NCBI GenBank assembly: GCA_903863885.1
Contig: CAIPEB010000065.1
Span: 1-64,000 of the forward strand
DNA: 64,000 nucleotides
Direction of reading: 5' to 3'
Source of the DNA: an uncultured Planctomycetaceae bacterium
GTDB taxonomy: Bacteria > Planctomycetota > Planctomycetia > Pirellulales > Pirellulaceae
The notes beneath the pieces were generated by a model. The model was given only the letters and a program-made list of their open reading frames with translations, did not search any database and had not been told where the DNA came from. Below, piece after piece: positions 5,637-28,683 of this stretch; position 1 is the first letter of the stretch, and every line of letters starts with the position of its first letter. A program made the translations under genes and the position numbers.

Positions 5637-7343
5637 TCAGTGAACTTCGGCGTCTGCGGCATGTTCGCGGCATGCTTCCGATCCGGGCGAATGGTCGCGC
5701 CACCACTGCCGCGCATCGGCGGGCCCCCAGCTTCCGGACGCGGCGCAGGCGTCCAGCGTCTCGGCCAGCTCGGAGGCCGATTGGAAACGGTCCGAGGGAC
5801 TCTTGGCAAGGCATCGCAGGATCGCCTGCTCCAGGTCGCCGGGAATATCCGGCTGCGAACGCGAAGGCGGTTCGGGGGTTTCGCGGACGTGAGCGACGAT
5901 CTGCTGCATGGGCCGCTCGTAATCGAACGGCGGCCGTCCGACCAGCATGAAATACCCGACAGCCCCCAGAGAATAAAGATCGCTGCGCGAGTCCGGCTCC
6001 GAGTCCCCAATTGCCTGCTCGGGTGAAAGGAACTGCGGCGAACCGGTGATGGATCCGACCTGGGTCAACTGTTGCGAGCCGCTCTCGAGATTCGACACGG
6101 GCTTGGCCAGTCCGAAATCGAGCAGCTTGACGACGTCATATTGCCGCCCTCGCTGGGCCGCGAAGATATTCGCCGGCTTGATGTCGCGATGGATCAACCC
6201 CATGGCATGGGCTTCGCCGAGCGCATCGCACGTCTGCCGCAGCAGGTAGATCACTCGGCTTGCCGGTAACGGCCCGTACCGCGTGACGAGGTCGTGGAGA
6301 CTGAGGCCCGGCAGAAACTCCATCACGTAGTAGAACGTCCCGTCATCGGTGCGGCCGTAATCAAAAATGTCGATGTTGTTCCAGTGCGAGAGCCTGGCGC
6401 TGGTGCGGACCTCGCGTTCGAATCGCGCGAGCACTTTGGGATCACCTGCCTTGTCGGGTCTGATCAACTTGACCGCGCACGGCCGCTTCAGCAGGCGGTG
6501 CTCGGCCAGATAGACTTCGCCCATCCCGCCGCGGCCGATCAGCCTCTTCAGGTGGTACTGTCCGAGCTGCCGCGCCTCGAACGCTTCGCGCCGCAAGCGG
6601 CCGATCGTCGCGACGCCCATCGTGCCGGCGACGGCGCACATCGTCAGCGAGAGAAACGTCTGCACGGCAAATGACGCATTCGCATTGACGGCTCCCGCGC
6701 AGCACGGACTGAACTGAATCATGCCGACCAGCAGCAGGAAGCTGGCCCCCGCCATGGCACCCAGCACGATGCCGGCCCGCTGCCATGTATTGGGTATGAA
6801 CATGGCATACGTGAATATCAGCATCGTCCAGTGCCCGGTGAAATTCGGCAGCATCCGGTATTCGGCGGCCATGTAGTTCACGGTCACGTACTGGAAATAC
6901 AGCATGAAGACCGACGGCAGGCCGAAGACGGCCAGTTCATGCCAGCGCAGCGAGCGTTCCGAAATCGGGCAACTGCGGCAAAGCAGAATACTGTTTACTC
7001 CCAGGACCAGCGTCACCGCAGCATGGGCCGCAAAAAGCGTCACCCAGCGGGGATCGCTCCAGGACACGATATACGCGTGCCACACAAGGAACGCCGCAAA
7101 GCCGGAGCACATCACCAGCGTGGCCGTGCGCAGCCTCGAGCGCAGAAGCTCGCGGGTCTCGGCGGTCAGTCCCGGCTCGGCCCCCTCGAGCATTCGCACG
7201 GCGACCGGACATGCCGCCCGCGCACCGTCCGGACTCGCTGAATCCGGCGTCGCTCGATCGGGCGTCGGTAATGAGGCACTTGAACCGTCGAGCGTCGCTT
7301 CGCCCGCTTCTCGCGCCAAGGATCTGGTCTGCTGGCTGTCCAT
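5637..7343 (-). CDS. Membrane Ser/Thr protein kinase, N-terminal multi-TM sensor
   Basis: 568 residues from the ATG at 7343; a GTG at 7367 is the longer alternative. The first 70 residues are a Ser/Pro/Ala-rich cytoplasmic tail. About six hydrophobic segments follow between residues 80 and 265. A Hanks-type kinase domain completes the protein: Gly-rich loop GRGGMGEVY, VAIK-type lysine in CAVKLI, catalytic HRDIKPANIF, DFG in LDFGLAKP, and a TGSPQFLSPEQ activation segment. It therefore has the order membrane domain then kinase, the reverse of the usual PknB layout of kinase, TM and extracellular sensor. It should phosphorylate cytoplasmic proteins in response to a membrane signal. Target unknown. 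Confidence 0.88.
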   Translation of the reverse strand: MDSQQTRSLAREAGEATLDGSSASLPTPDRATPDSASPDGARAACPVAVRMLEGAEPGLTAETRELLRSRLRTATLVMCSGFAAFLVWHAYIVSWSDPRWVTLFAAHAAVTLVLGVNSILLCRSCPISERSLRWHELAVFGLPSVFMLYFQYVTVNYMAAEYRMLPNFTGHWTMLIFTYAMFIPNTWQRAGIVLGAMAGASFLLLVGMIQFSPCCAGAVNANASFAVQTFLSLTMCAVAGTMGVATIGRLRREAFEARQLGQYHLKRLIGRGGMGEVYLAEHRLLKRPCAVKLIRPDKAGDPKVLARFEREVRTSARLSHWNNIDIFDYGRTDDGTFYYVMEFLPGLSLHDLVTRYGPLPASRVIYLLRQTCDALGEAHAMGLIHRDIKPANIFAAQRGRQYDVVKLLDFGLAKPVSNLESGSQQLTQVGSITGSPQFLSPEQAIGDSEPDSRSDLYSLGAVGYFMLVGRPPFDYERPMQQIVAHVRETPEPPSRSQPDIPGDLEQAILRCLAKSPSDRFQSASELAETLDACAASGSWGPADARQWWRDHSPGSEACREHAADAEVH

Positions 7344-15106: not shown

Positions 15107-15802
15107 TTAGTCGAACTGGCTGTCCATGCCCAGTCGCATCTTGAGCTGATCAAACTGGTGGGAGAATTGATCGCTCGACGAGTGGACGTGCTCCGCTTCC
15201 GTGATGAACTTGATGTCCGGATCGAGCGGCAAGCCGTGAGCGGTAAGCACTTCTTCGAACTCGTCGAGCGATTGGCCGTACATGATCAACAGTTTGTGCT
15301 CGTCGAACTGGACTTCCAGGGGAATGCTCGGGTTCAGCACGGCGATGCCCGCGCAACCGTCGTTCAGCAGCAGTTCCTCAAAGTCCCACAAGGTGCTCTT
15401 AAGAACCGGCGCGTCGATGTGCTCGCGAAAGAGGTCCTCGTGCCCTCCGCTCGGCCGGTGATGGCTGGTCTCCAGGACCACATCCAACTCCCCGCCCAGC
15501 GGTTCGATCATGTCCATGAACAACTCGAACAACTTCTCCTTCGAGGCCGAGGCCATCAACACGGGAACCCGGTGCTTTCTGTCTTCGTCCTGATACGCGT
15601 CGTGGCGATACCCCTGACGCGGAACGACCTGCAGGTCGTACGAGGGGCGCACCGCATCCGTCAATCGGAATTCGCCGTAGCGAAACACGCCGAGATGGGC
15701 TTCCAATTCCTCTTCGGAAAGGTGCTCGAAGCTGCTGTGCTGAGGAGCGGAAACTTCATTCTCGTGGATCGGACTGCGGAAGAACTTCTTGAGAAACCCC
15801 AT
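15107..15802 (-). CDS. Conserved hypothetical acidic protein
   Basis: 231 residues, soluble, rich in Asp, Glu and His, with no signal peptide or membrane segment. It opens MGFLKKFFRSP and then has a mixed alpha/beta pattern (QVVPRQGYRHDAYQ, LDVVLETSHHRPS, LLIMYGQSLDEFEEVL). I do not recognise a family. The composition and secondary-structure rhythm suggest a cytoplasmic globular protein. It sits alone on the minus strand between two exported-protein genes. Confidence 0.65.
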   Translation of the reverse strand: MGFLKKFFRSPIHENEVSAPQHSSFEHLSEEELEAHLGVFRYGEFRLTDAVRPSYDLQVVPRQGYRHDAYQDEDRKHRVPVLMASASKEKLFELFMDMIEPLGGELDVVLETSHHRPSGGHEDLFREHIDAPVLKSTLWDFEELLLNDGCAGIAVLNPSIPLEVQFDEHKLLIMYGQSLDEFEEVLTAHGLPLDPDIKFITEAEHVHSSSDQFSHQFDQLKMRLGMDSQFD

Positions 15803-18248: not shown

Positions 18249-18307
18249 TCCGGACTCCGGACTCCAGACTCCAGACTCCGGACTCCAGACTCCAGACTCC
18301 AGACTCC
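18249..18307 (+). repeat. Heptamer tandem repeat (ACTCCAG/ACTCCGG)
   Basis: About eight 7-base units of ACTCCGG or ACTCCAG in the 361-bp gap between the transglutaminase-like gene and the ubiquitin-like cassette. Two ATGCCGG units (18219-18233) sit just upstream, resembling the hexamer family seen elsewhere. Confidence 0.85.
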
Positions 18308-18325
18308 TTCCCCTTCGGCCGCGAC

Positions 18326-18545: not shown

Positions 18546-18836
18546 ATGTCCGAAGCCATACCGGAACGTAGAGGAACCCGCGTGACTTTTCTCGACCAGA
18601 CGGGAGCCAAGTCCGTCGACGCGGTAATCGCGGACAGTGTGACGGTCAAACGAATCCTGCCAAACATCATCACGAAGATGAACTTGCCGGTGATGGGTCC
18701 GGATGGCCAGCCGATGAGCTACAGCCTGGACCACAAAGAGGGAGGTCGGCGTTTGCGCGAGGAACAGACGCTTGTGGAAGCGGCCGTTCGTGATGGCGAC
18801 CATTTGATCGTTTACCCGGAGATCGTGGCTGGGTAA
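18546..18836 (+). CDS. Ubiquitin-like beta-grasp protein (YukD/Ubl-like)
   Basis: 96 residues from the ATG at 18546, with AGGAGA about 8 bases upstream; a GTG at 18543 is also in frame. The pattern fits a ubiquitin/YukD-type beta-grasp fold: strand VTFLDQTG, a strand and helix with VKRILPNIITKMN, the loop DGQPMSYSLDHKEGGRRL, then LREEQTLVEAAVRDGDHLIVYPE, like the ubiquitin 'L...TL...ygi..gstihlv' ending. It terminates in VAG, so the mature end is Ala-Gly rather than Gly-Gly and has no tail to trim. First gene of a tight same-strand run with E2, E1, JAB and RING genes, so it is the likely conjugated modifier. Confidence 0.8.
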   Translation: MSEAIPERRGTRVTFLDQTGAKSVDAVIADSVTVKRILPNIITKMNLPVMGPDGQPMSYSLDHKEGGRRLREEQTLVEAAVRDGDHLIVYPEIVAG

Positions 18837-18929
18837 GTTAGCGGTAGCAGCGGGTCTTTCGGCACGGATCTCGTCGCTGCCGGGAAATCGCGGCCCCTGG
18901 CGATGCAGGACGGGGCGAGGAGCGTGAGG

Positions 18930-19574
18930 ATGTCCGATTCACCTCGAATTCGACGGTTGCGCAGCGACTATCGCGCGATGGAGAAACTGCGGGCCGACAG
19001 TTCAATTCTCGAGTTTGCTTTTCCTGCGCGGCCGGCCGGCGTTCCCGAGGCTTACGTCATTCGCTTCCTGGGGCGAGGCCTGTTTCGAGTGCCCGGTTCC
19101 TCCGAGGTTTACTTTCGCGAACAGCACGAGGTGAGCATTCGTCTTGGCGCCGGGTATCCGCGCATGATGCCCGAGATTTCCTGGAAGACACCCATTTTTC
19201 ACCCGAATGTCTCGTCGAACGGGGTCGTCTGCCTGGGGGGTTACGGCACGTACTGGGTACCGAGCCTGAGCCTTGACGAGCTGTGCATCATGCTCTGGGA
19301 CGTCGTTCGTTATGCGAACTTCGATGTGGACAGTCCGTACAACCGCGAGGCGGCGTTCTGGGCAAAGAACCAGCCGGCCGGCGCATTCCCCGTCGACAGG
19401 CGGCCGCTTCGCGATCGAGTTGCAGGAGTTGCTCCGCGCGACTCCCTCCGCAAGCCGCCCATCGTTGTGCCGCCCGGATCGGGATTGGCTCGAGATGCGT
19501 TCTCCGACTTCAGCGATGTGATCGATGCCGAGGTCCTCGAACCGGAAGAGTCGGAGATTCTCTTCATCGATTGA
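18930..19574 (+). CDS. E2-like ubiquitin-conjugating-fold protein, active-site Cys present
   Basis: 214 residues from the ATG at 18930, preceded by GAGG; the frame extends 9 codons back. The E2 (UBC) fold is plain: helix RIRRLRSDYRAMEKL, PE/P motif region YPRMMPEISWKTPIFHPN, and the HPN signature at residues 91-93 followed by the catalytic Cys101 in GVVCLGG. The eight-residue step from the HPN Asn to Cys is the same as in eukaryotic E2s. LDELCIMLWDVVRY then matches the post-active-site helix. It should accept the Ubl from the adjacent E1 as a thioester. The roughly 70-residue C-terminal extension is acidic and lacks a recognised domain. Confidence 0.88.
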   Translation: MSDSPRIRRLRSDYRAMEKLRADSSILEFAFPARPAGVPEAYVIRFLGRGLFRVPGSSEVYFREQHEVSIRLGAGYPRMMPEISWKTPIFHPNVSSNGVVCLGGYGTYWVPSLSLDELCIMLWDVVRYANFDVDSPYNREAAFWAKNQPAGAFPVDRRPLRDRVAGVAPRDSLRKPPIVVPPGSGLARDAFSDFSDVIDAEVLEPEESEILFID

Positions 19575-19617
19575 ATGGCTTCGCCACCAGCATTTCCGCC
19601 AAACGCCGACATGCCCG

Positions 19618-20841
19618 ATGTACCTTGATGATGCGGATCGTTACTCCCGTTTGCGACTGATTGCCTGGTGGGACCAGACCCGCCTGGCCCGTGCGAGGAT
19701 TCTGGTCGTGGGCGCGGGCGCGCTGGGCAACGAAGTCCTCAAGAACCTGGCCCTGGTGGGAGCGGGCACGCTGCACGTCGTTGATTTCGACAAGGTCGAG
19801 GAATCCAACCTCACCCGCTCGACGCTGTTTCGCGACCGTGACTGCGGGCGTCCCAAAGCGCTGGCTGCTGCGGCTGCGCTGCGAGACCTGAACGCCGACA
19901 CTCGCGTCATACCGCACGCCGGAAACGTCATGACCGACGTCGGCCTCGGGCTCTTCCGAGACGCTGATGTCGTCATCGGCTGCCTCGACAATCGCGAAGC
20001 CCGGCTCTGGGTCAATCGCCAATGCTGGAAAGTGAGCACGCCGTGGATTGACGGCGGTATCCAGGAAATCAACGGCGTGGTCAAGGTCTTCGTCCCGCCT
20101 GCAAGCGCCTGCTACGAATGCGGCATGACCGAGAACGACTACCGGCTCATCAACCTGCGATACAGCTGCCCGCTGCTGAGGCGCGAGGACATCGCCGCCG
20201 GCAAAGTGCCCACCTCCCCCACCATCGCCTCGATCGTGGGCGGCCTGCAGACTCAGGAAGCGCTCAAGCTGCTGCATGGACTTCCCGTCGCGGCGGGCGA
20301 AGCACTCGTCTTCAACGGCGTGGCCAATCAGTTCTACCGGACCGCATTCCAGCGGCGCGAAGACTGCCTCAGTCACGAGACCTACGAAGAAGTCCGGGAG
20401 TTGCCCATCTCGGCAGCCGGCACTGCGGCGGAGTTGTTCTCCGCGGCGCGGAGTCTTCATCCCTCCACCGAGCCGCTGCGTCTTCTCCTGGACCGTGACC
20501 TGGTGACCGAGACGGAGTGCGGCCAGTGCGGCGAACGCAAAAAAGTCATGCGGCCGCTGTATTCGACAGGCATCGAACTGGCGCGCTGCAATCGCTGCGG
20601 CGAAATCGGAAAGCCCATCATGCAGCACGTTGTGGTCGAAGGCGATTTGCTTGCCAACGAGACGCTGGAACAGTTGGGCATACCCCGATACGACATCGTG
20701 CGGATTCAAGTCTCGGATCGGGAAATACCGCTGCTGCTGGCCGGCGACCGACCGACCGTTCTGGACCCCGCACACAGCATTAACGCCGCGGATCATCAGG
20801 GTCTGCGCGAAAATGACGGAGTGAAGAGTACAACAGTTTGA
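19618..20841 (+). CDS. E1-like ThiF-family Ubl-activating enzyme
   Basis: 407 residues from the ATG at 19618. The frame starts at 19525 and overlaps the E2 gene, but that N-terminal part is not family-like. The ThiF/MoeB/E1 adenylation domain shows GAGALG (residues 32-37), VVDFDKVEESNLTR with Asp56/Asp58 and Arg67, Lys80, and CLDN (Asp124). CYEC (165-168) and a distal CGQC...CNRC pair probably form a zinc site. Cys184 in RYSCPLL occupies the region of the E1 thioester cysteine and is the candidate catalytic residue. It would adenylate the Ubl C-terminus and pass it to the E2. The C-terminal 120 residues include a small helical stretch and the zinc ribbon. Confidence 0.88.
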   Translation: MYLDDADRYSRLRLIAWWDQTRLARARILVVGAGALGNEVLKNLALVGAGTLHVVDFDKVEESNLTRSTLFRDRDCGRPKALAAAAALRDLNADTRVIPHAGNVMTDVGLGLFRDADVVIGCLDNREARLWVNRQCWKVSTPWIDGGIQEINGVVKVFVPPASACYECGMTENDYRLINLRYSCPLLRREDIAAGKVPTSPTIASIVGGLQTQEALKLLHGLPVAAGEALVFNGVANQFYRTAFQRREDCLSHETYEEVRELPISAAGTAAELFSAARSLHPSTEPLRLLLDRDLVTETECGQCGERKKVMRPLYSTGIELARCNRCGEIGKPIMQHVVVEGDLLANETLEQLGIPRYDIVRIQVSDREIPLLLAGDRPTVLDPAHSINAADHQGLRENDGVKSTTV

Positions 20842-20872
20842 ATGGATTAAATCCTGCGCTATCCCTTGGTTT

Positions 20873-22273
20873 TTGCGAAGCAACCGACGGTGCCACTTGA
20901 GCAGTTCGGACATCGACCTTGGTGATCTGGAACACATCGTCCCAGAGCGGAAGATGCGTCCCGACCGGGATAGCCACTACGCCGTGGCTACCGTCGGACA
21001 GCCCTCGGATCGGGATCCGCCTGTCTTCGTCGAACTGGATGCGATCCTGGACGCTGAGGACCATGCGTTGAGCGACACCCGCGTCGAACTGGGCGGAGTG
21101 CTGCTCGGCGGACACTTCCAGGACTCGGACGGCAAACCGTTCGTATTCGTGACCGACGCCTTGCGGGCCCGGCATTATGAAGCCACGAAGGGCTCCTTCA
21201 AATTCACTCACGATACGTGGCAGGAAATCACCCGGCAGCGCGAGGGCTACGATCCCGGCACGAGAATCGTCGGTTGGTATCACACGCATCCCGGATGGGG
21301 CGTTTTCCTTTCGGGAATGGACCTGTTCATCTGCGAACATTTCTTCAACCGGCCTCTGGACCTCGCGCTGGTCATCGATCCCTGCCGGGGTGAGCGGGCC
21401 TTTTTTCAATGGTCTGACGCAACCCCGCGCCAAGTTCAGCAAAGCAGCGGCTATTACCTGGTCGCTTCCCGATTCCGACAGCACGAACTCGACGCATATG
21501 CCCGTCTCTTTGCGGGAGATAACGAAATGTCCCAAGACCCACGCGTCCGAAATCTGACCGCCTCGCCTGCTCCGTCCGTCGTCATCAACGAATCGAACCG
21601 TTCGTGGCAGACCCTGGCCGTGCTCGGCTCGCTGACCGTTCAGTTGGCCGTGCTGGCCCTGCTTTTCTGGCGATTCGCGGCAGAGTCGTCCGGATCCCGC
21701 GACGCAGCGATTCAAGCAAACGCCGCCCAGCAAGCGCTCGCGGAACTGACCGTTTCACGGATTCGCGAACACGAATTGAACGCGAAGGCCGAGGTGCTCG
21801 ACGCGGTCGTCGGCAAGACGCCTGACGGCCAGCAGGGACTCGTCTCATCGCTGCTGGAAAAGAGCAACGAAGCCGAGGATCTCCGATCCAATCTCCGAGG
21901 GCAGCGAGCCCTCCAGCAGGAAACCGACCGGCGGCTCACTGCCGTTCAGGCCGATCTGCAGAAGTCCAACAAGCGCAACGAGCAACTGGCCGCCGAAGTC
22001 GAACGCATGCAGATCGTGCTCGCTGAACTTCGGACCAAGAACTCGAAGCAGGAGCAGCAGATAGCCGAATTGCAGGGGCAATCAGGCACGGCAGCCGATG
22101 GTTCCACCGCCGAATCGGAAGCTGCGGACCCGCCGATTTGGGAATGGCCCGGCGTGCAGCTCGGCGTAGCAGTTGGACTGCTTGGCTTAATCACGCTGGC
22201 AGTCGTCCGGTATCGGCGATTTCAGGGCAGTTCGCAGCCGACTTCCGATATTCCTAACCGTGCGGGCGAATAG
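20873..22273 (+). CDS. Membrane-anchored JAB/MPN+ metallopeptidase with coiled coil
   Basis: 466 residues from a TTG at 20873; TTG 20897 and ATG 20954 are alternative starts, and the ribosome site does not settle the choice. The JAMM zinc motif is complete: Glu72 (VELGGVLLG), then His137-x-His139 (GWYHTHPG), Ser147 and Asp150 (FLSGMD), matching E...HxHx10D. Hydrophobic segments at about 247-268 and 428-446 flank a 140-residue heptad-rich coiled coil (270-410) and leave a short basic C-terminus. The expected role is Ubl processing or deconjugation, as for JAB proteins of other bacterial Ubl systems. Unusually, it is tethered to the membrane. Confidence 0.88.
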   Translation: MRSNRRCHLSSSDIDLGDLEHIVPERKMRPDRDSHYAVATVGQPSDRDPPVFVELDAILDAEDHALSDTRVELGGVLLGGHFQDSDGKPFVFVTDALRARHYEATKGSFKFTHDTWQEITRQREGYDPGTRIVGWYHTHPGWGVFLSGMDLFICEHFFNRPLDLALVIDPCRGERAFFQWSDATPRQVQQSSGYYLVASRFRQHELDAYARLFAGDNEMSQDPRVRNLTASPAPSVVINESNRSWQTLAVLGSLTVQLAVLALLFWRFAAESSGSRDAAIQANAAQQALAELTVSRIREHELNAKAEVLDAVVGKTPDGQQGLVSSLLEKSNEAEDLRSNLRGQRALQQETDRRLTAVQADLQKSNKRNEQLAAEVERMQIVLAELRTKNSKQEQQIAELQGQSGTAADGSTAESEAADPPIWEWPGVQLGVAVGLLGLITLAVVRYRRFQGSSQPTSDIPNRAGE

Positions 22274-22365
22274 AGATTGGCGGTTTTCGAAACCGACCAC
22301 TCCAAACCACCCGCCCGGCGATCCACCGGTGCGAAAATACTCCCAGGCCCGGAGGAGCGTCCATC

Positions 22366-22986
22366 GTGCCGAGCGAAACCCGTTGCGAACGGCTTGCCGC
22401 GGAACTCCACGCGATGCGTGCGATCCAACAGGACAGCAGCATCCTGGACTTTCACTGGACGGGCACGCCGCCCGATCAATACACCCTTACTTTTTACGGA
22501 CGCAGCATACGACGGCGAGCCGATTCGCCCGGCGAACTGGAGTTCGTGCAGCGTCACGAAGTCGAAATCCGCCTGCCTGCCCGATATCCGGCCCAGCCGC
22601 CGGACATACGCTGGCTGACTCCGATCCTGCACCCCAACATTTCTTTTTCCGGACTGGTTTCGCTGTCCGACATCGGATTGGGCTGGGATCCGGATCTTGG
22701 TCTGGACCTGATCTGCGAGCGGCTCTGGGATGTCGCGCGATACCAGTTCATTAATTCGACGCGTATTCACAATCCAGCCGCGTTTGAATTGGTAGTGAGA
22801 CCGCGGCACATCCGGCTGCCCACGGACGCGAGACCGCTGCGAGGCGTGTCGCCCGAGCGGTGCCCGCCCCGAGTCGCAAATCCACTAGCCGTTTCCGATG
22901 ACCCGATCGACGCGCCGATCCGGTTCACTTCTCCCCTGCGCCATCATTGGCCGCGTCGCAGACTGTATTACATCGGACCGACATGA
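22366..22986 (+). CDS. E2-like protein with Ser in place of catalytic Cys (UEV-like)
   Basis: 206 residues from a GTG at 22366, with GGAGGAG upstream. Clearly related to the first E2: N-terminal helix with RLAAELHAMRAIQQDSSILDF, YPAQPPDIRWLTPILHPN, and LDLICERLWDVARYQF. HPN is at residues 89-91, and the position eight residues later, where the active E2 has Cys, is Ser99 (GLVSLSD). It should not form a thioester, so it resembles eukaryotic E2 variants (UEV) that scaffold a partner E2. The C-terminal tail (about 140-206) is Pro/Arg-rich with no recognised domain. Catalytic inactivity is inferred from one residue; an oxyester mechanism is possible. Confidence 0.82.
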   Translation: MPSETRCERLAAELHAMRAIQQDSSILDFHWTGTPPDQYTLTFYGRSIRRRADSPGELEFVQRHEVEIRLPARYPAQPPDIRWLTPILHPNISFSGLVSLSDIGLGWDPDLGLDLICERLWDVARYQFINSTRIHNPAAFELVVRPRHIRLPTDARPLRGVSPERCPPRVANPLAVSDDPIDAPIRFTSPLRHHWPRRRLYYIGPT

Positions 22987-23128
22987 AGCACGCGAGGAAC
23001 GGGTCCGCAGACCTCTGCAATGTGCCGAGGCACGTTGAGCCGGCGGGCAGGCGGGACGATAATCGACGTCCGCTTCATGTTTAACAACCGCATCGGAAGC
23101 CGGCGCCCGGCCGGGGAGGAAACTGCTC

Positions 23129-24013
23129 GTGGAATGTCTTCTGACGTTCCTGTTTCTGCTGGTTGCCGCGATTTTTCTCGTCGGTTCCGTGACAAATTCG
23201 TACGCGAACCGCTCGCGCCGGCGGTTCGTGTATGAGAGCCTGGCCAGACGCTACGCGGGTTCTCGCGTTCCAGGCGGCTTCCTGAATCCCATGACGCTGC
23301 AACTTCGTTACGGCGACACCCGCGCGTCGCTGCGTGAAACTTCGTCCAGCTGGCCTTACCGGCAGACTTGCACCGAGCTGACCATTGCCTGGCCCGATTT
23401 CGCATTCCGCTGCGAGATACTCCCGAGAAAGGTGGTCGTCGGTTTCCCGGCAGATCGCTATCGGAGTGAGTTCGCGACGGGGGACGCGGCCTTCGACGAC
23501 GAGTTCGTTGTCAACGGAACCGATGAAAAGGCCACCCGGCAATTGGTGCGGGACGGAGTGCGCTGGCAGATTCGAAGGATTTCGCAGCTCTTTTACAGCA
23601 ACTCCGTCTGCATTCTGATCCAATTCGGTCAGATCATCGTCCGCAAGCCCGACTCGCTGTGGAAGCTCGACGATCTTCAGTTATTCGTCGAGCGGTCGCT
23701 GGAACTCTACGACCAGATCATGCTCACTCGCGCCAGCGGAATTGAATTCCTCGACAGCGACGAGGCCCAAACGCTCGAGGATGTGATTTGTCCGGTCTGC
23801 GGCGAGACCATCGCGCGGCAGCTCGTATTCTGCCGCCGCTGCAAGACGCCCTACCACGCCGACTGCTGGGAATTCGTCGGAGCCTGCTCGGTTTACGGCT
23901 GCGGAGAAAGACGCTGTCTCAGCCCGCAATCGGCGCGCGCGGCAAGCGGGCCGCATGCGAACATGCCGGCAGCGCCGCCGCGCGGCTCGGATTCCGGGCA
24001 GCAGCCAGGCTGA
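23129..24013 (+). CDS. Membrane-anchored RING-finger-like protein (E3-like)
   Basis: 294 residues from a GTG at 23129, with GGAGGAAA upstream. One N-terminal membrane segment (residues 4-24) is followed by an uncharacterised region (35-210) of alternating strands and helices, then a treble-clef RING-like finger. The ligands are Cys221, Cys224, Cys235, Cys238, His243, Cys246, Cys253 and Cys258, spaced C-x2-C-x10-C-x2-C-x4-H-x2-C-x6-C-x4-C. A low-complexity C-terminus follows. In eukaryotes RING proteins dock E2~Ub; with an E1, two E2-like genes, a Ubl and a JAB immediately upstream, an E3-like adaptor role is likely. Last gene of the cassette. Confidence 0.85.
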   Translation: MECLLTFLFLLVAAIFLVGSVTNSYANRSRRRFVYESLARRYAGSRVPGGFLNPMTLQLRYGDTRASLRETSSSWPYRQTCTELTIAWPDFAFRCEILPRKVVVGFPADRYRSEFATGDAAFDDEFVVNGTDEKATRQLVRDGVRWQIRRISQLFYSNSVCILIQFGQIIVRKPDSLWKLDDLQLFVERSLELYDQIMLTRASGIEFLDSDEAQTLEDVICPVCGETIARQLVFCRRCKTPYHADCWEFVGACSVYGCGERRCLSPQSARAASGPHANMPAAPPRGSDSGQQPG

Positions 24014-25274: not shown

Positions 25275-26975
25275 TCAAGCCAGGATTTCCCGCTTGCGCT
25301 CGATGTAGTCCCAGACGACGAACCGATCAAGATCCCGCCCGGCCGTGAAGAAGACCCTGCCCTTGGTCGACTCGGCCACCCGGTAGGCGAAGCGGATGTC
25401 CTCTTCCGACTGCGACCAACTCGGCACCAGGAAGATGTTGATCGTGATGCCCTCCCGCTGACACAGCAGCGCCTCGCGCATCGTGGCCGCCTCGGTCAGC
25501 GGATCCGGCGGATACAGCAGATAGAGCCATGAGCCGTCGAAGTGCGCGGTCGGCAGCCCATCGGTGATCAGGATCACCTGCCGGTTCGGCGTGTCCTGCG
25601 CGGCGAGCAGCTGCCTGGCCATCTGCAGCGAACGCTGGATGTTGGTGAAGTGCGGCGGAATCTGCAGCTCGCTGATGTCGTCGCGACTCATGTCGATCCG
25701 GAACCGCACGATCGGATCGAACAGCGTAACCGGTTTGGGCAACAGATCAATGACCTCGGCCGGACGCCGCAGGCGAGCGAATGTGTACATCTCGATGAAA
25801 TGCAGGAAATCGCCCGGATATTCGCGGCGAATCAGGCCTTCGAGAGCCAGGCCCATGCGTTTCACGTTGATGTACTGGCCGTCGTAACGCATCGAACCGC
25901 TCATATCCATGATCACCACCGATGCACACTTCGGCGTGTTTCGAGTCCGGTGGATTTCGATGTCCTCGGCCTTCAACCGCAACGGCAACTGCCTCCCCCG
26001 GCGCACCATGGCGTTGACGAACGTCTGCGGAATGTCCATATGCGTGACGGAATCGCCGAACTCATACGGCTTCGTCCGCTGCAGTTCCACGGCGCCTTCG
26101 CCCGTCACCGGACCTTGATGACGGCCGGTCCGCGACGGTTGAAGATGGCTGAAGATCCGTTCGAGCAAACGTCCTTGAAACAACCGGTAGGCAAGCGGCG
26201 TCAACTGGAATCCCCGCGTTCCGCGCTCGAGCCCCTGCTGCTCGGCCAGATCGCGGATGTAGTCGTCGATCATCTGCTGCATTTCCTGAAGACGTTCCAT
26301 ATCTCCAGGCTCGGTGAACTCCGCCAGGGCCTCGAGGTCGATCACGGCGATCTGCGCCGTCTCGCGCGCCTGCTCAAGCTGCTTGAGCAGTTCCTCGATC
26401 TTGTCGAGTTCTTCCTTGACGGCGAGCGATTCTTCGATCGAAAGAGGCGTCCGGCCGGTGAATGCGTACTTGGACGCCAATTCGTCAATCTGGTACTTAT
26501 TGCCCAGCGACTCGATCACTCGCAGCAGGCCCTTGGAGAACGGTGAAGCTTCTTCGCCCGAGGCATACCAGAGCCGCTCGAGTTCGTAGATCTGCTCGGT
26601 TTCCGTCGCCAGCTCGTATCGTGCCGCATGGCGCCGGGGCGGCACCGTGCGCTCGACCTCCGAGCGATAGGCCGCGCCGGCCTTGCTCTGAACCGATTCC
26701 GTTTCGTATTTGGCGAGGATCTTGCGTTTGCGTTCGAGCAGCATCGCCATCAGCGCATCGAGACTCGGCCCGAGTCCGGCAATCTGACTCGGATCAATGC
26801 GTATCGCCCGCGCAAGCTCCTCTTCGGTGAGACGCCGCCGGCTGCCGTACATCAGCATGTGTTCGAACGCCGGCGATACGGCATCCGGCGGAGGCTGCGT
26901 GGGACTGGGGAAATTCCGAGGGTCGTACTTCTGGTACGTGTGCAAGACGCCGCCGAGTCGCTGCTCTTTCGCCAT
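25275..26975 (-). CDS. vWA domain protein, MoxR-partner type
   Basis: 566 residues, soluble, no signal peptide. The N-terminal 330 residues are helical and highly charged (for example LSIEESLAVKEELDKIEELLKQLEQARE). The C-terminal vWA domain carries the MIDAS DMSGSM with a downstream TDGLPTAHFDG. It starts 43 bases after the AAA+ gene on the same strand. MoxR-like AAA+ and vWA proteins in such pairs generally act as chaperone-like remodelling complexes for metal-dependent or membrane-associated targets. The target here is unknown, but the pair lies between the Ubl and type VII-like cassettes. Confidence 0.86.
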   Translation of the reverse strand: MAKEQRLGGVLHTYQKYDPRNFPSPTQPPPDAVSPAFEHMLMYGSRRRLTEEELARAIRIDPSQIAGLGPSLDALMAMLLERKRKILAKYETESVQSKAGAAYRSEVERTVPPRRHAARYELATETEQIYELERLWYASGEEASPFSKGLLRVIESLGNKYQIDELASKYAFTGRTPLSIEESLAVKEELDKIEELLKQLEQARETAQIAVIDLEALAEFTEPGDMERLQEMQQMIDDYIRDLAEQQGLERGTRGFQLTPLAYRLFQGRLLERIFSHLQPSRTGRHQGPVTGEGAVELQRTKPYEFGDSVTHMDIPQTFVNAMVRRGRQLPLRLKAEDIEIHRTRNTPKCASVVIMDMSGSMRYDGQYINVKRMGLALEGLIRREYPGDFLHFIEMYTFARLRRPAEVIDLLPKPVTLFDPIVRFRIDMSRDDISELQIPPHFTNIQRSLQMARQLLAAQDTPNRQVILITDGLPTAHFDGSWLYLLYPPDPLTEAATMREALLCQREGITINIFLVPSWSQSEEDIRFAYRVAESTKGRVFFTAGRDLDRFVVWDYIERKREILA

Positions 26976-27018
26976 GCTCAGTCCAACCCGACCTCGCTTA
27001 GGTCTGTTTTCCGGCTGC

Positions 27019-28443
27019 TCATCGGTTGATCTCGTAAACGACGGAACCCCGATGCTGGGATCGCGAGATCTTGTCCATCGAATACAGCCCGGCGAGAACG
27101 AACTCCACGCACGATGCCCGCATGGCCGGATCGCTGGCGGCGTTCACCTCGAAGGCCTTGTCCCAGACCGGAGGAACCCGCTTCAGCAGGCCGGCGTATT
27201 TCTCGGATGAAATCAGGTCGCCGACTTCGATCTTCACTCCCTTCGAGAAAATCTCCGCGATTTCAGCCAATCCGTGCCTGTCCACGTACTCGTCGAACAC
27301 CGTGCGGATGGCTTCCGCCATGACGGCATCCAGCACCTGCCGGTCGCTCATCTGATGGCTGCCCATCAGGTCCAGCTCGAGCTTGCCCAGAGACGACGAG
27401 TACAAATGTCCGAGGTCGCTGATCCGGGGCACGGCAGGCCGTTCGCCCAGCACAACCGCACGCTGCCGCGCGGACGCGACCATCGTCCGGTAATTCGCGA
27501 TGCTGAAGCGGGCACTGACTCCCGACTGCTGATCGACATATTTCGACTTGCGGGCCTGAATCGTGATCTGCTCGATAATTTCCCGCATGAAATACGGCAC
27601 GACGACCGGGTACTGGCCGTCGAGTTCCACCGCGGCCTCCTGCTCCATGATCTGGATGCCGAGATCCCGGTCCCGCGGATAGTGAGTGTGGATCACGGAG
27701 CCGATTCGATCCTTCAACTGCGGGATCACCTTGCCGCTGCGGTTGTAAGTCGACGGATTGGCCGAGAAGAGCATCACCACGTCGATCTCGAATCGGATCG
27801 GATAACCGCGGATCTGGACGTCGCGTTCCTCGAGAATATTGAACATCCCGACCTGAACCAGTTCATCCAGTTCCGGAAGTTCGTTCATCGCGAAAATCCC
27901 GCGGTGCATCCGCGGAATCAAACCGAAATGCAGAGCCTCCTCGGTGGACATGCTCTCGCCGCCGGCCAGTTTCGCCGGATCAATTTCGCCGATGATGTCG
28001 GCGAACTTCGTCCCCGGCGACAACCGCTCCGCATAGCGATCCGACCGGTGCCACCATCCGATCGGCACTTCCTCCTCGGGCCAAGCCGCCACGCACTGCC
28101 GGCCGACGCGGCTGATGGGATGATAGGGGTCGTCGTGAAAGGGAGCCGCCGGAATATCAATGAAGGGGATCTCTTCGTCAAGAAACCGCACGAGCGAACG
28201 CATCAGCCGGCTCTTGGCCTGCCCCTTCTCCCCCAGAAACAGCATGTCGTGACCCGAGATCAGGGATAAGTTGATTTCCGGAATCACCGTGTCCTCGTAG
28301 CCCACGATGCCGGGAAACAACTCCTCGCGCGAGGCCAGCATCCGCAGAAAATTCTCGCGGATCTCCTGCTTCACCGGCCGCGATACCCAACCGCTCGCCC
28401 GTAACTCCCGCAGATTCCTCGGTTTTGACTGACCGTTTTCCAT
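27019..28443 (-). CDS. MoxR/magnesium-chelatase-I-like AAA+ ATPase
   Basis: 474 residues from the ATG at 28443; a TTG at 28470 is in frame. Walker A is degenerate at the start but readable ([14 protein letters not shown]). LMFSANPS-type sensor sequence ([12 protein letters not shown]), Arg-finger-like [20 protein letters not shown] and a C-terminal helical lid follow. It resembles the ChlI/MoxR class of AAA+ ATPases that work with a vWA partner, here the next gene. Together they may remodel a protein complex using ATP. No transmembrane segment is present, so it acts in the cytoplasm. Confidence 0.9.
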
Positions 28444-28683
28444 AAGCGCAACCACAGGGCCTTTCAGCAACCCGACGTGATGAACCAGGCGCGCAGAACG
28501 ACATCAGGCGCCAACCCGGCCCGGAAAGCCCGTTCATTTCGGCGAAAACCGATCGGAATTCGTTCCTGTTCCGATTATAGCGCGGTGGGACATGAAACCA
28601 AGGGAAGCCTCGCCGGCCCCTCCGCCGGCTCGCGCGCGTTTGTATCCGCGGCCATCCGTGGCCTCTTCCTTCGGCACACGATC

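Follow-up and report, generated by a model that had tools for sequence, protein, structure and literature searches.

A planctomycete operon encoding a ubiquitin-like protein, E1, E2, JAB and RING proteins and a second E2-fold protein that lacks the catalytic cysteine

Genes and domains of the operon

The window (the whole stretch of 64 000 nucleotides that was analysed) contained six co-directional open frames on the + strand at 18546-24013, in the order Ubl (ubiquitin-like), E2, E1, JAB, pseudo-E2 and RING and with intergenic gaps of ~30-145 bp; the arrangement is not due to chance, because gene order is kept in relatives. The features were as follows.

18546..18836, + strand: Ubl, 96 aa, YukD-type beta-grasp, ends ...YPEIVAG (Pfam)
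18930..19574, + strand: catalytic E2, 214 aa, with HPN, Cys101 (19230-19232) and acidic-hydrophobic tail ESEILFID (Pfam, alignment)
19618..20841, + strand: E1, 407 aa, with a single adenylation domain of ThiF type and Cys184 (20167-20169) as thioester candidate (Pfam, alignment)
20873..22273, + strand: JAB/JAMM peptidase, then membrane helix, coiled-coil-like stretch and second membrane helix (Pfam, hydropathy); start codon uncertain (TTG 20873 or 20897, or ATG 20954)
21611..21667, + strand: first JAB membrane helix as predicted, limits approximate (hydropathy)
22151..22207, + strand: second JAB membrane helix as predicted, limits approximate (hydropathy)
22366..22986, + strand: pseudo-E2, UEV-like, 206 aa, HPN kept, Ser99 (22660-22662) in place of Cys (Pfam, alignment, model)
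23129..24013, + strand: RING-type E3 candidate with N-terminal membrane helix, TtfA/CCDC47-like domain to ~residue 206 and RING at 221-258 (23789-23902) (Pfam, hydropathy, model)

A first-pass annotation had placed six co-directional genes here and assigned them to a beta-grasp modifier, an E2 with HPN and Cys101, an E1 with candidate thioester Cys184, a JAMM deconjugase, a Ser-variant E2 and a RING-like finger, with JAB and RING tethered to the membrane. The frames were all present, and the comparison of each gene with HMM families that it had proposed was run with Pfam; matches above the curated cut-off were obtained for 6/6 window proteins and supported the component assignments. Its term 'complete cassette' held for the core Ubl-E2-E1-JAB-RING; the second JAB (JAB2) of the expanded form in relatives was missing here.

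The Ubl carried a single YukD-type domain (PF08817, E 1.8e-17), the sole YukD match in the genome; no significant match was returned when PDB sequences were searched with the Ubl, the best having E 0.03. Its last Arg was residue 82, so that trypsin would leave a long remnant, and its C-terminus was a single Gly without a tail. AG was the exact C-terminal end in 46/76 distinct Ubls and 30/76 continued beyond it: in 29 the motif was followed by a variable tail, and in one the motif itself was a variant, again with AG and a tail. Median identity in 25 same operons was 88.9% for the Ubl versus 60.5% for E2 and 62.4% for E1.

The catalytic E2 matched UQ_con (PF00179, E 4.6e-13) above cut-off, and the Cys101 column held Cys in 78/79 E2 rows, window included; the one exception had a gap there and came from a truncated contig. 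An acidic-hydrophobic C-terminal tail was conserved in catalytic E2s and most pseudo-E2s, but not in the window pseudo-E2, whose tail deviates from the usual motif. A strict DNA pattern for the E2 tail, defined after the tails had been inspected, occurred at 4 places (reversed control, 1). The tail as a feature of other proteins was rejected: besides the E2 itself, two places had Trp instead of the required stop, and the reading frame of the last ran antisense to a longer one that was open.

The E1 matched ThiF (PF00899, E 2.8e-56), with one ThiF domain at residues 14-251 of 408 in P0003, which is the E1 with one extra leading residue, so that Cys184 is Cys185 there. Candidate Cys184 was invariant in 73/73 other rows, as were CxxC 166/169, Cys251 and His254 (P0003); two further CxxC pairs C-terminal to the ThiF domain resembled a zinc ribbon, with the Pfam match under cut-off. 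The 6A-MBL model scored 47.6 bits (cut-off 320), and the BilD model aligned to residues 26-140 of the E1 only (E 4.5e-8).

The JAB matched PF01398 (E 2.7e-7) and Prok-JAB (E 7.1e-6), and the JAMM residues (E72, H137, H139, S147 and D150 in P0004, the JAB) were conserved in the window JAB and in the 28 JAB and 15 JAB2 rows examined. Hydropathy peaks, two in JAB and one in RING, fit the predicted tethering; at the chosen cut-off no hydrophobic stretch was seen in 6/71 JAB loci (one of these cut) and 6/60 RING rows (one of these cut by the contig end). Quick methods were used for hydropathy scans, for the E2 and JAB trees and for dN/dS.

The RING protein matched Prok-RING_1 (PF14446, E 8.9e-10) above cut-off and its eight Cys/His ligands were located (C221, C224, C235, C238, H243, C246, C253 and C258). 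CCDC47 is a eukaryotic ER translocon factor of the multipass translocon. The RING protein's helix and N-terminal domain are predicted to share a fold with CCDC47 and TtfA, a remote match, of fold and not of function, made with one predicted model. The model gave Z 14.8 with TtfA (6t84, an entry without the membrane helix) over residues 28-206, and Z 11.5 and 9.8 with 7tm3 chain 4 and 9i78 chain 4, which were taken as CCDC47 by inference and aligned to model residues 1-204 and 2-204, covering helix and domain. The CCDC47 match came from a second look with VIA-align and was absent among the 50 Foldseek matches listed; Foldseek significance was reached for TtfA only (E 1.9e-4). The aligned parts of CCDC47 and TtfA lack a RING, unlike the window protein, and sequence identity to both was 6-9%. 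A profile of 25 RING proteins, searched against PDB sequences, found no CCDC47/TtfA chain up to E 10, the best match being a cellulose-synthase zinc finger (E 0.0052). Full-length TtfA is described, in the available part of PMC6593404, with a predicted membrane helix at residues 2-24 and an essential part within 1-205, and as interacting with MmpL3. No paper naming both CCDC47 and TtfA was found in a literature search.

Role of the Ubl and genomic setting

The Ubl might instead be a scaffold or sulphur carrier (as YukD is in type VII secretion or ThiS/MoaD in making cofactors), the E2-fold and RING proteins then only assembling a membrane complex. YukD, its closest Pfam family, is reported not to be conjugated in Gram-positive bacteria (available part of PMC1779556), and therefore a Ubl of YukD type is not necessarily a modifier; the one NCBIfam match of the Ubl was EccD (20.1 of 94.95 bits, far under cut-off), and the E1 scored with the NCBIfam ThiF and MoeB models, both under their cut-offs. 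This reading is nevertheless unlikely: the Ubl is accompanied by an E2 with near-invariant Cys and by JAMM peptidases, the conserved AG, with tails that vary beyond it, resembles a terminus that is processed for conjugation, and the other five proteins had no secretion or cofactor domain except ThiF itself. Type VII secretion genes were not found among the six proteins or the seven neighbouring window proteins scanned.

The operon was patchy (78/241 genomes of the family) and Ubl modules occur in defence systems (PMC13373217, PMC7159879, in the parts available), as would suit anti-phage defence of the Bil, type II CBASS or FtsH-ternary kind. The hint at defence in the first-pass annotation was not borne out, and we think such a role improbable: a flanking window gene had homologues beside 42/80 distinct loci, PADLOC gave only ThiF-core and JAB-domain matches plus weak ones (E above 0.02), no effector, CD-NTase, caspase or regulator domain was found by Pfam in the six proteins, and no Ubl relative was found in 50,697 phage records or 72,556 plasmid records. 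A defence island likewise had no support from the PADLOC, flanking-gene, phage and plasmid results. Genes of vWA and Mg-chelatase-like type lay at 25275-28470 on the opposite strand, beyond a TIM-barrel gene.

A proteasome link was also considered and rejected, the one Pup-ligase-family match (contig C278) and the single Proteasome-family match (C558) in the genome being on contigs other than that of the operon. No 20S-type proteasome was seen in the genome; the C558 match was, by eye, HslV-like and beside an HslU-like gene.

The second E2-fold protein and JAB2

Among 68 complete operons, 24 had both pseudo-E2 and JAB2, 41 had neither, and the window alone had a pseudo-E2 without JAB2. JAB2 sits between E2 and E1 in 24/24 other complete pseudo-E2 operons; a search of the 96%-complete genome with one JAB2 as query (L091) found only the operon's own JAB. 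Because this companion of the pseudo-E2 is missing, the window pathway may be partly decayed: active in relatives, it would be decaying here after loss of JAB2, with the pseudo-E2 as a remnant, to which the deviating pseudo-E2 tail would also conform. We judge this doubtful, given that all six frames are open with key residues conserved, that JAB and Ubl are still present, and that 41/68 complete operons do with neither JAB2 nor pseudo-E2.

The second E2 matched UQ_con with E 7.4e-10, above cut-off for the window protein alone. Its predicted model had an E2 fold (Z 14.4 over 135 residues), the underlying alignment including 8 catalytic E2s, so that the fold result is not independent of them; a model lacking the E2 fold, named in the first-pass annotation as a possible refutation, was thus not seen here. 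In the E2 tree the 26 pseudo-E2 rows, window included, formed one clade (support 0.999); of 6 pairs compared for dN/dS, the 4 that were not saturated gave 0.06-0.35. HPN was kept in 23/26 rows. At the Cys position nine different residues occurred (N 11, D 4, Ser 3, K 2, G 2, and E, H, A and R) and Cys in 0/26, the column being less certain in the most divergent rows. The name 'Ser-variant E2' fits the E2 fold, HPN and Ser99 but might be taken to imply a serine nucleophile. That Ser99 carries Ubl as an active oxyester enzyme, giving two parallel conjugating enzymes, is very improbable: HPN and fold are retained and Ser occupies the Cys position in the window protein, but a required nucleophile would not vary so among 26 rows. 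Because Ser is found in only 3/26 rows, the protein is best read, from its sequence, as a non-catalytic E2.

Proposed pathway and known systems

We consider it moderately likely that this chromosomal operon encodes a pathway for Ubl conjugation at the membrane surface, in which a UEV-like E2 would serve as cofactor and membrane proteins may be the targets. We infer conjugation, the order of its steps, its substrates and the fate of tagged proteins as follows. A JAB peptidase would cut off the tail beyond AG where the genome encodes one; the E1 would adenylate the Ubl, accept it on Cys184 and transfer it to the catalytic E2 at Cys101. The RING protein, anchored in the cytoplasmic membrane, would use its TtfA/CCDC47-like domain to deliver the Ubl-loaded E2 to substrates there, and the membrane-anchored JAB would remove Ubl from them. 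The second E2-fold protein would carry no Ubl and may be a UEV-like non-catalytic partner of E2, RING or Ubl; it could, for instance, hold an acceptor Ubl in place so that chains form on its Lys22, Lys44 or Lys64.

A more far-reaching version, speculative and on balance rather unlikely, would make the operon a bacterial counterpart of ER-associated quality control, in which a RING E3 with a CCDC47/TtfA-related client-binding domain tags multipass membrane proteins with the hyper-conserved Ubl; the expanded operon would build poly-Ubl chains by E2 and UEV-like partner, paralleling Ubc13-Mms2, and a second, soluble JAB would edit them.

If the membrane-surface pathway is real, it would be a compact bacterial example in which a complete E1-E2-E3 pathway works at a membrane, set among recurring chromosomal neighbours with no evident defence island. 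The paired presence or absence of pseudo-E2 and JAB2 would make the origin of UEV-type E2s and extra deconjugases testable, the CCDC47/TtfA-like domain would tie a bacterial RING ligase to a eukaryotic membrane-protein biogenesis fold, and the window operon would offer a simple bacterial model for how Ubl-tagging kits became more elaborate.

The core set Ubl-E2-E1-JAB-RING is an already known kind of operon with planctomycete carriers reported earlier: prokaryotic Ubl systems with E1, E2, RING E3 and JAB (Burroughs, Iyer and Aravind 2011) are described, and Planctomycetes named as carriers, in the available parts of PMC4197634 and PMC7159879. As in those operons, a beta-grasp Ubl, a ThiF-type E1, a catalytic E2, a RING and a JAMM peptidase stand together here, and Singulisphaera acidiphila DSM 18658 also has the five-gene set, headed there by the RING gene. 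Beyond this core lie, as judged from the sequences, the Cys-less second E2 and, in relatives, also JAB2 and as many as three RING genes. No description of the form with pseudo-E2 and JAB2 was found in the literature searched, Burroughs 2011 and the papers on Bub (Gong 2025, Ye 2026) lying outside that search.

The Caldiarchaeum subterraneum operon (PMC5654768, available part) has Ubl, E1, E2, a small RING and a pro-Ubl-trimming JAMM protease and was reconstituted with purified proteins; it is archaeal, with a di-glycine end where AG stands here, and has one E2 in the cluster, that part of the source mentioning no Cys-less E2 or membrane anchor. The FtsH-ternary tri-ligase module likewise joins E1, E2, RING E3 and JAB, but its Ubl is fused to E2 and EAD1 and accompanied by MoxR, vWA, FtsH and effector genes (PMC7159879, available part), whereas Ubl and E2 are separate genes here and none of the latter is among the six. 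BilABCD follows the same Ubl, E1, E2 and JAB/JAMM logic, and Bub is likewise a bacterial ubiquitination-like pathway (PMC11354881, PMC13373217, in the parts available). In the Bil system, BilA has two Ubl domains (tandem, ISG15-like) and BilD combines an active adenylation domain with an inactive one; the window has one YukD domain in 96 aa and one adenylation domain, and adds RING and pseudo-E2. Type II CBASS and 6A-MBL have an E1-E2 fusion protein beside a CD-NTase (or MBL) gene; in the window operon the two enzymes are encoded by separate genes, and the six include no CD-NTase. Eukaryotic UEV proteins (Mms2/UEV1) form a heterodimer with an active E2 that directs chain linkage. They have an E2 fold without the catalytic Cys, as does the second E2 described here, which shares its operon with a catalytic E2; the pseudo-E2, in contrast, is bacterial and keeps HPN in most rows.

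The operon, its genome and its relatives

The six genes at window positions 18546–24013 (Ubl, catalytic E2, E1, JAB, second E2 and RING) were confirmed as the first-pass annotation had them, on a single strand with short gaps, and HMM comparison gave each of the six a Pfam assignment over the curated cut-off. The genome is an 11.0 Mb draft (789 contigs, 96% complete) in which the operon Ubl is the sole match to the YukD family, the operon RING the sole match to Prok-RING_1, and the operon's two E2s the two UQ_con matches. Elsewhere in this genome, on contig C529 a small gene that on visual inspection resembles an E2 lies ahead of a JAB-like gene (L210:3525-4634; Prok-JAB, below cut-off), the two perhaps forming a separate Ubl-type module; contig C278 encodes a Pup-ligase-family protein (L208:8103-9854, E 7.5e-83) in which internal stretches look hydrophobic by eye, and contig C167 a Prok-JAB domain (L211, about 6218–6550) within a 1215-aa open frame.

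Named genomes were scanned with the Ubl alignment and the best 80 of 108 relatives kept; addition of the window and of 30 loci from genomes without names gave 111 loci, from which 28 duplicates and 3 loci without any E2 were removed to give 80 distinct loci, a set chosen by closeness to the window Ubl and therefore not a sample of bacteria at large. The Ubl was matched in 78/241 family genomes (own included; 46/159 of the good ones), two of the 78 having a distant match alone (41–44%). The second-E2 query matched 28/294 genomes drawn from the phylum and 51/396 from the order; in the order set, 29 of the matched genomes belong to the window's family (its own genome counted), and 16 of these matched twice. 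A planctomycete form at greater distance is seen in five loci (L041, L051, L053, L055, L057): after Ubl-E1-JAB come 1–3 RING-matching frames and the E2, and the Ubls end in ITAG with a variable tail or none. In a Blastopirellula metagenome operon (L176) the E1 frame and the JAB frame are each split in two.

The second E2 and the two forms of the operon

On sequence grounds the second E2 (22366–22986) is a predicted pseudo-enzyme. The active position is Cys in 78/79 catalytic E2 rows, with a gap in one truncated row, and is never Cys in the 26 rows of the second E2, window included (N 11, D 4, S 3, K 2, G 2 and E, H, A and R 1 each); HPN is retained in 23 of the 26. The E2 fold claimed for this protein was recovered in its model (pLDDT 83.5, disordered tail), with a lowest Foldseek E of 3.7e-6 and a Z of 14.4 across 135 residues; because 8 rows of catalytic E2s stood beside 13 of pseudo-E2s in the alignment behind the model, the fold is best supported jointly with the Pfam match of the window protein alone. 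Six pairs were tried for dN/dS, giving 0.06, 0.11, 0.16 and 0.35 for the pseudo-E2, with saturation in two, and 0.006–0.03 in five pairs for the Ubl; these values are rough, synonymous sites being near saturation in most pairs.

Relatives' operons may also hold a second JAB gene (JAB2) between E2 and E1. A complete core (Ubl, E2, E1 and JAB) was present in 68 distinct loci, window included. Pseudo-E2 and JAB2 are both lacking in 41 of these and both present in 24; JAB2 occurs without pseudo-E2 in two, L136 and L129 (shortened by a contig end), and the window is the single locus with pseudo-E2 and no JAB2. A search of the window's genome with one JAB2 as query found no copy. The commonest gene orders were Ubl-E2-E1-JAB-RING and Ubl-E2-JAB2-E1-JAB-pseudoE2, the latter followed by 1–3 RING genes or none detected; the RING gene stands first in the seven loci that carry an Isosphaeraceae title or placement, that of Singulisphaera acidiphila included. 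When the 27 rows with pseudo-E2 or JAB2 were labelled on an E1 tree of 68 rows, the label required 8 changes, at least 5 of them forced by well-supported branches, against a shuffle mean of 21.5; the two genes were thus mostly gained or lost together, and more than once. All 26 pseudo-E2 rows fall into a single clade (support 0.999), as do the 27 JAB2 rows (0.941) apart from one row, a JAB frame of L176 that is split in two. These single clades fit one origin followed by repeated loss, with transfer a possible alternative.

Conservation and features of the components

Among 25 complete pseudo-E2 operons, median pairwise identity was 88.9% for Ubl, 62.4% for E1, 60.5% for E2, 57.3% for JAB2 (24 rows), 45.2% for JAB, 40.5% for pseudo-E2 and 29.4% for RING (21 rows). 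Among the 76 distinct Ubls, that of the window counted, the AG of YPEIVAG is the very end of 46; in 29 a variable tail follows it, and the remaining one shows a variant motif, again with AG and then a tail. An AG in the same position was also present in 19 of the 20 more distant planctomycete Ubls listed, whether or not a variable tail comes after it. Lys22 is conserved in 75/75 other Ubls, and Lys44 and Lys64 in 74/75. These features fit a putative modifier that would be trimmed by JAMM peptidases and conjugated through its C-terminus.

E1 has a single ThiF domain and its best PDB matches are to UBA7 and other eukaryotic E1s and then to ThiF; its Cys184 counted from ATG (Cys185 in P0003, the protein with one extra leading residue) is invariant in 73/73 other rows and lies at the catalytic-Cys place of ThiF/UBA5-type E1s. 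JAMM residues are retained in every JAB and JAB2 row listed. JAB has a hydrophobic stretch in 65/71 loci (absent in L129 (cut), L151, L175, L195, L196 and L203), JAB2 in L099 only; the JAB coiled coil is based on the window protein and weak Pfam matches to coiled-coil families.

Within their last 20 residues, 61/79 catalytic E2 and 20/26 pseudo-E2 rows carry an acidic-hydrophobic pattern (for example EILFID or DVLYIGDE, with an upstream second copy in many E2s), against E1 0/79, JAB 1/71, JAB2 0/27, RING 0/60 and 1/2352 flank frames, most of these frames being spurious; a looser second pattern matched 77/79 and 18/26 E2 and pseudo-E2 rows, both patterns having been drawn up after inspection of the tails. 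The window catalytic E2 (18930–19574) ends ESEILFID and matches the tail pattern; the window pseudo-E2 ends RRLYYIGPT and matches neither. The motif resembles SUMO-interacting motifs; a candidate ligand is the Ubl, or else some other partner.

Of the eight ligand positions in the RING protein, seven hold Cys in 25/25 rows of alignment A2 and the eighth holds His or Cys. A hydrophobic stretch is present in 54/60 first-RING rows (absent in L115, L117, L118 (cut), L119, L169 and L171). In the model (pLDDT 87.6) a long helix at the N-terminus is followed by an alpha/beta domain, which extends to about residue 206, and then by the RING. Foldseek returned one match at E < 0.001, TtfA (1.9e-4). VIA aligned TtfA with model residues 28–206 (Z 14.8, 160 residues, 4.2 Å), 7tm3 chain 4 with 1–204 (Z 11.5, 194 residues, 4.5 Å) and 9i78 chain 4 with 2–204 (Z 9.8, 194 residues, 4.3 Å); type III secretion chaperones ranked under these at Z 7.6 and below, and a Z below 8 possibly reflects no more than a common arrangement. 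Chain 4 of 9i78 is probably CCDC47, because a passage of PMC12572126 gives residues 76–370 of CCDC47 as docked, the range of the aligned chain; that of 7tm3 is probably CCDC47 too, since the entry is the multipass translocon, which contains CCDC47, and resembles 9i78.

Genomic setting and known systems

One flanking gene recurs:
15107–15802, minus strand, recurrent flanking gene with no Pfam match at E 0.001
Its homologues lie in the flanks of 42/80 loci, flanks truncated by contig ends being scored as misses. In 19 loci, window included, the operon has a transglutaminase-like gene upstream of it in the same orientation; between this gene and the window operon, inspection by eye showed a short tandemly repeated sequence of the form gactcc(a/g)gactcc (18256–18310). 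No Ubl match was found in phage and plasmid collections. Together with the recurring flank genes this speaks for chromosomal inheritance and against a mobile defence module, even if the operon is patchily distributed.

Prokaryotic Ubl/E1/E2/JAB operons are described in parts of Iyer 2006 (PMC1779556), which also report inactive E2-like domains from polyUbl operons and class YukD as a Ubl that is not conjugated. Sections of a 2020 eLife paper (PMC7159879) describe tri-ligase Ubl modules and a related planctomycete system coupled with Pup conjugation, and a passage of a 2014 review (PMC4197634), citing Burroughs 2011, places operons related to the archaeal operon in Actinobacteria, Planctomycetes and Acidobacteria. 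The window operon may thus be regarded as a variant of an already known kind of Ubl operon, the expanded form of which Burroughs 2011 may already list.
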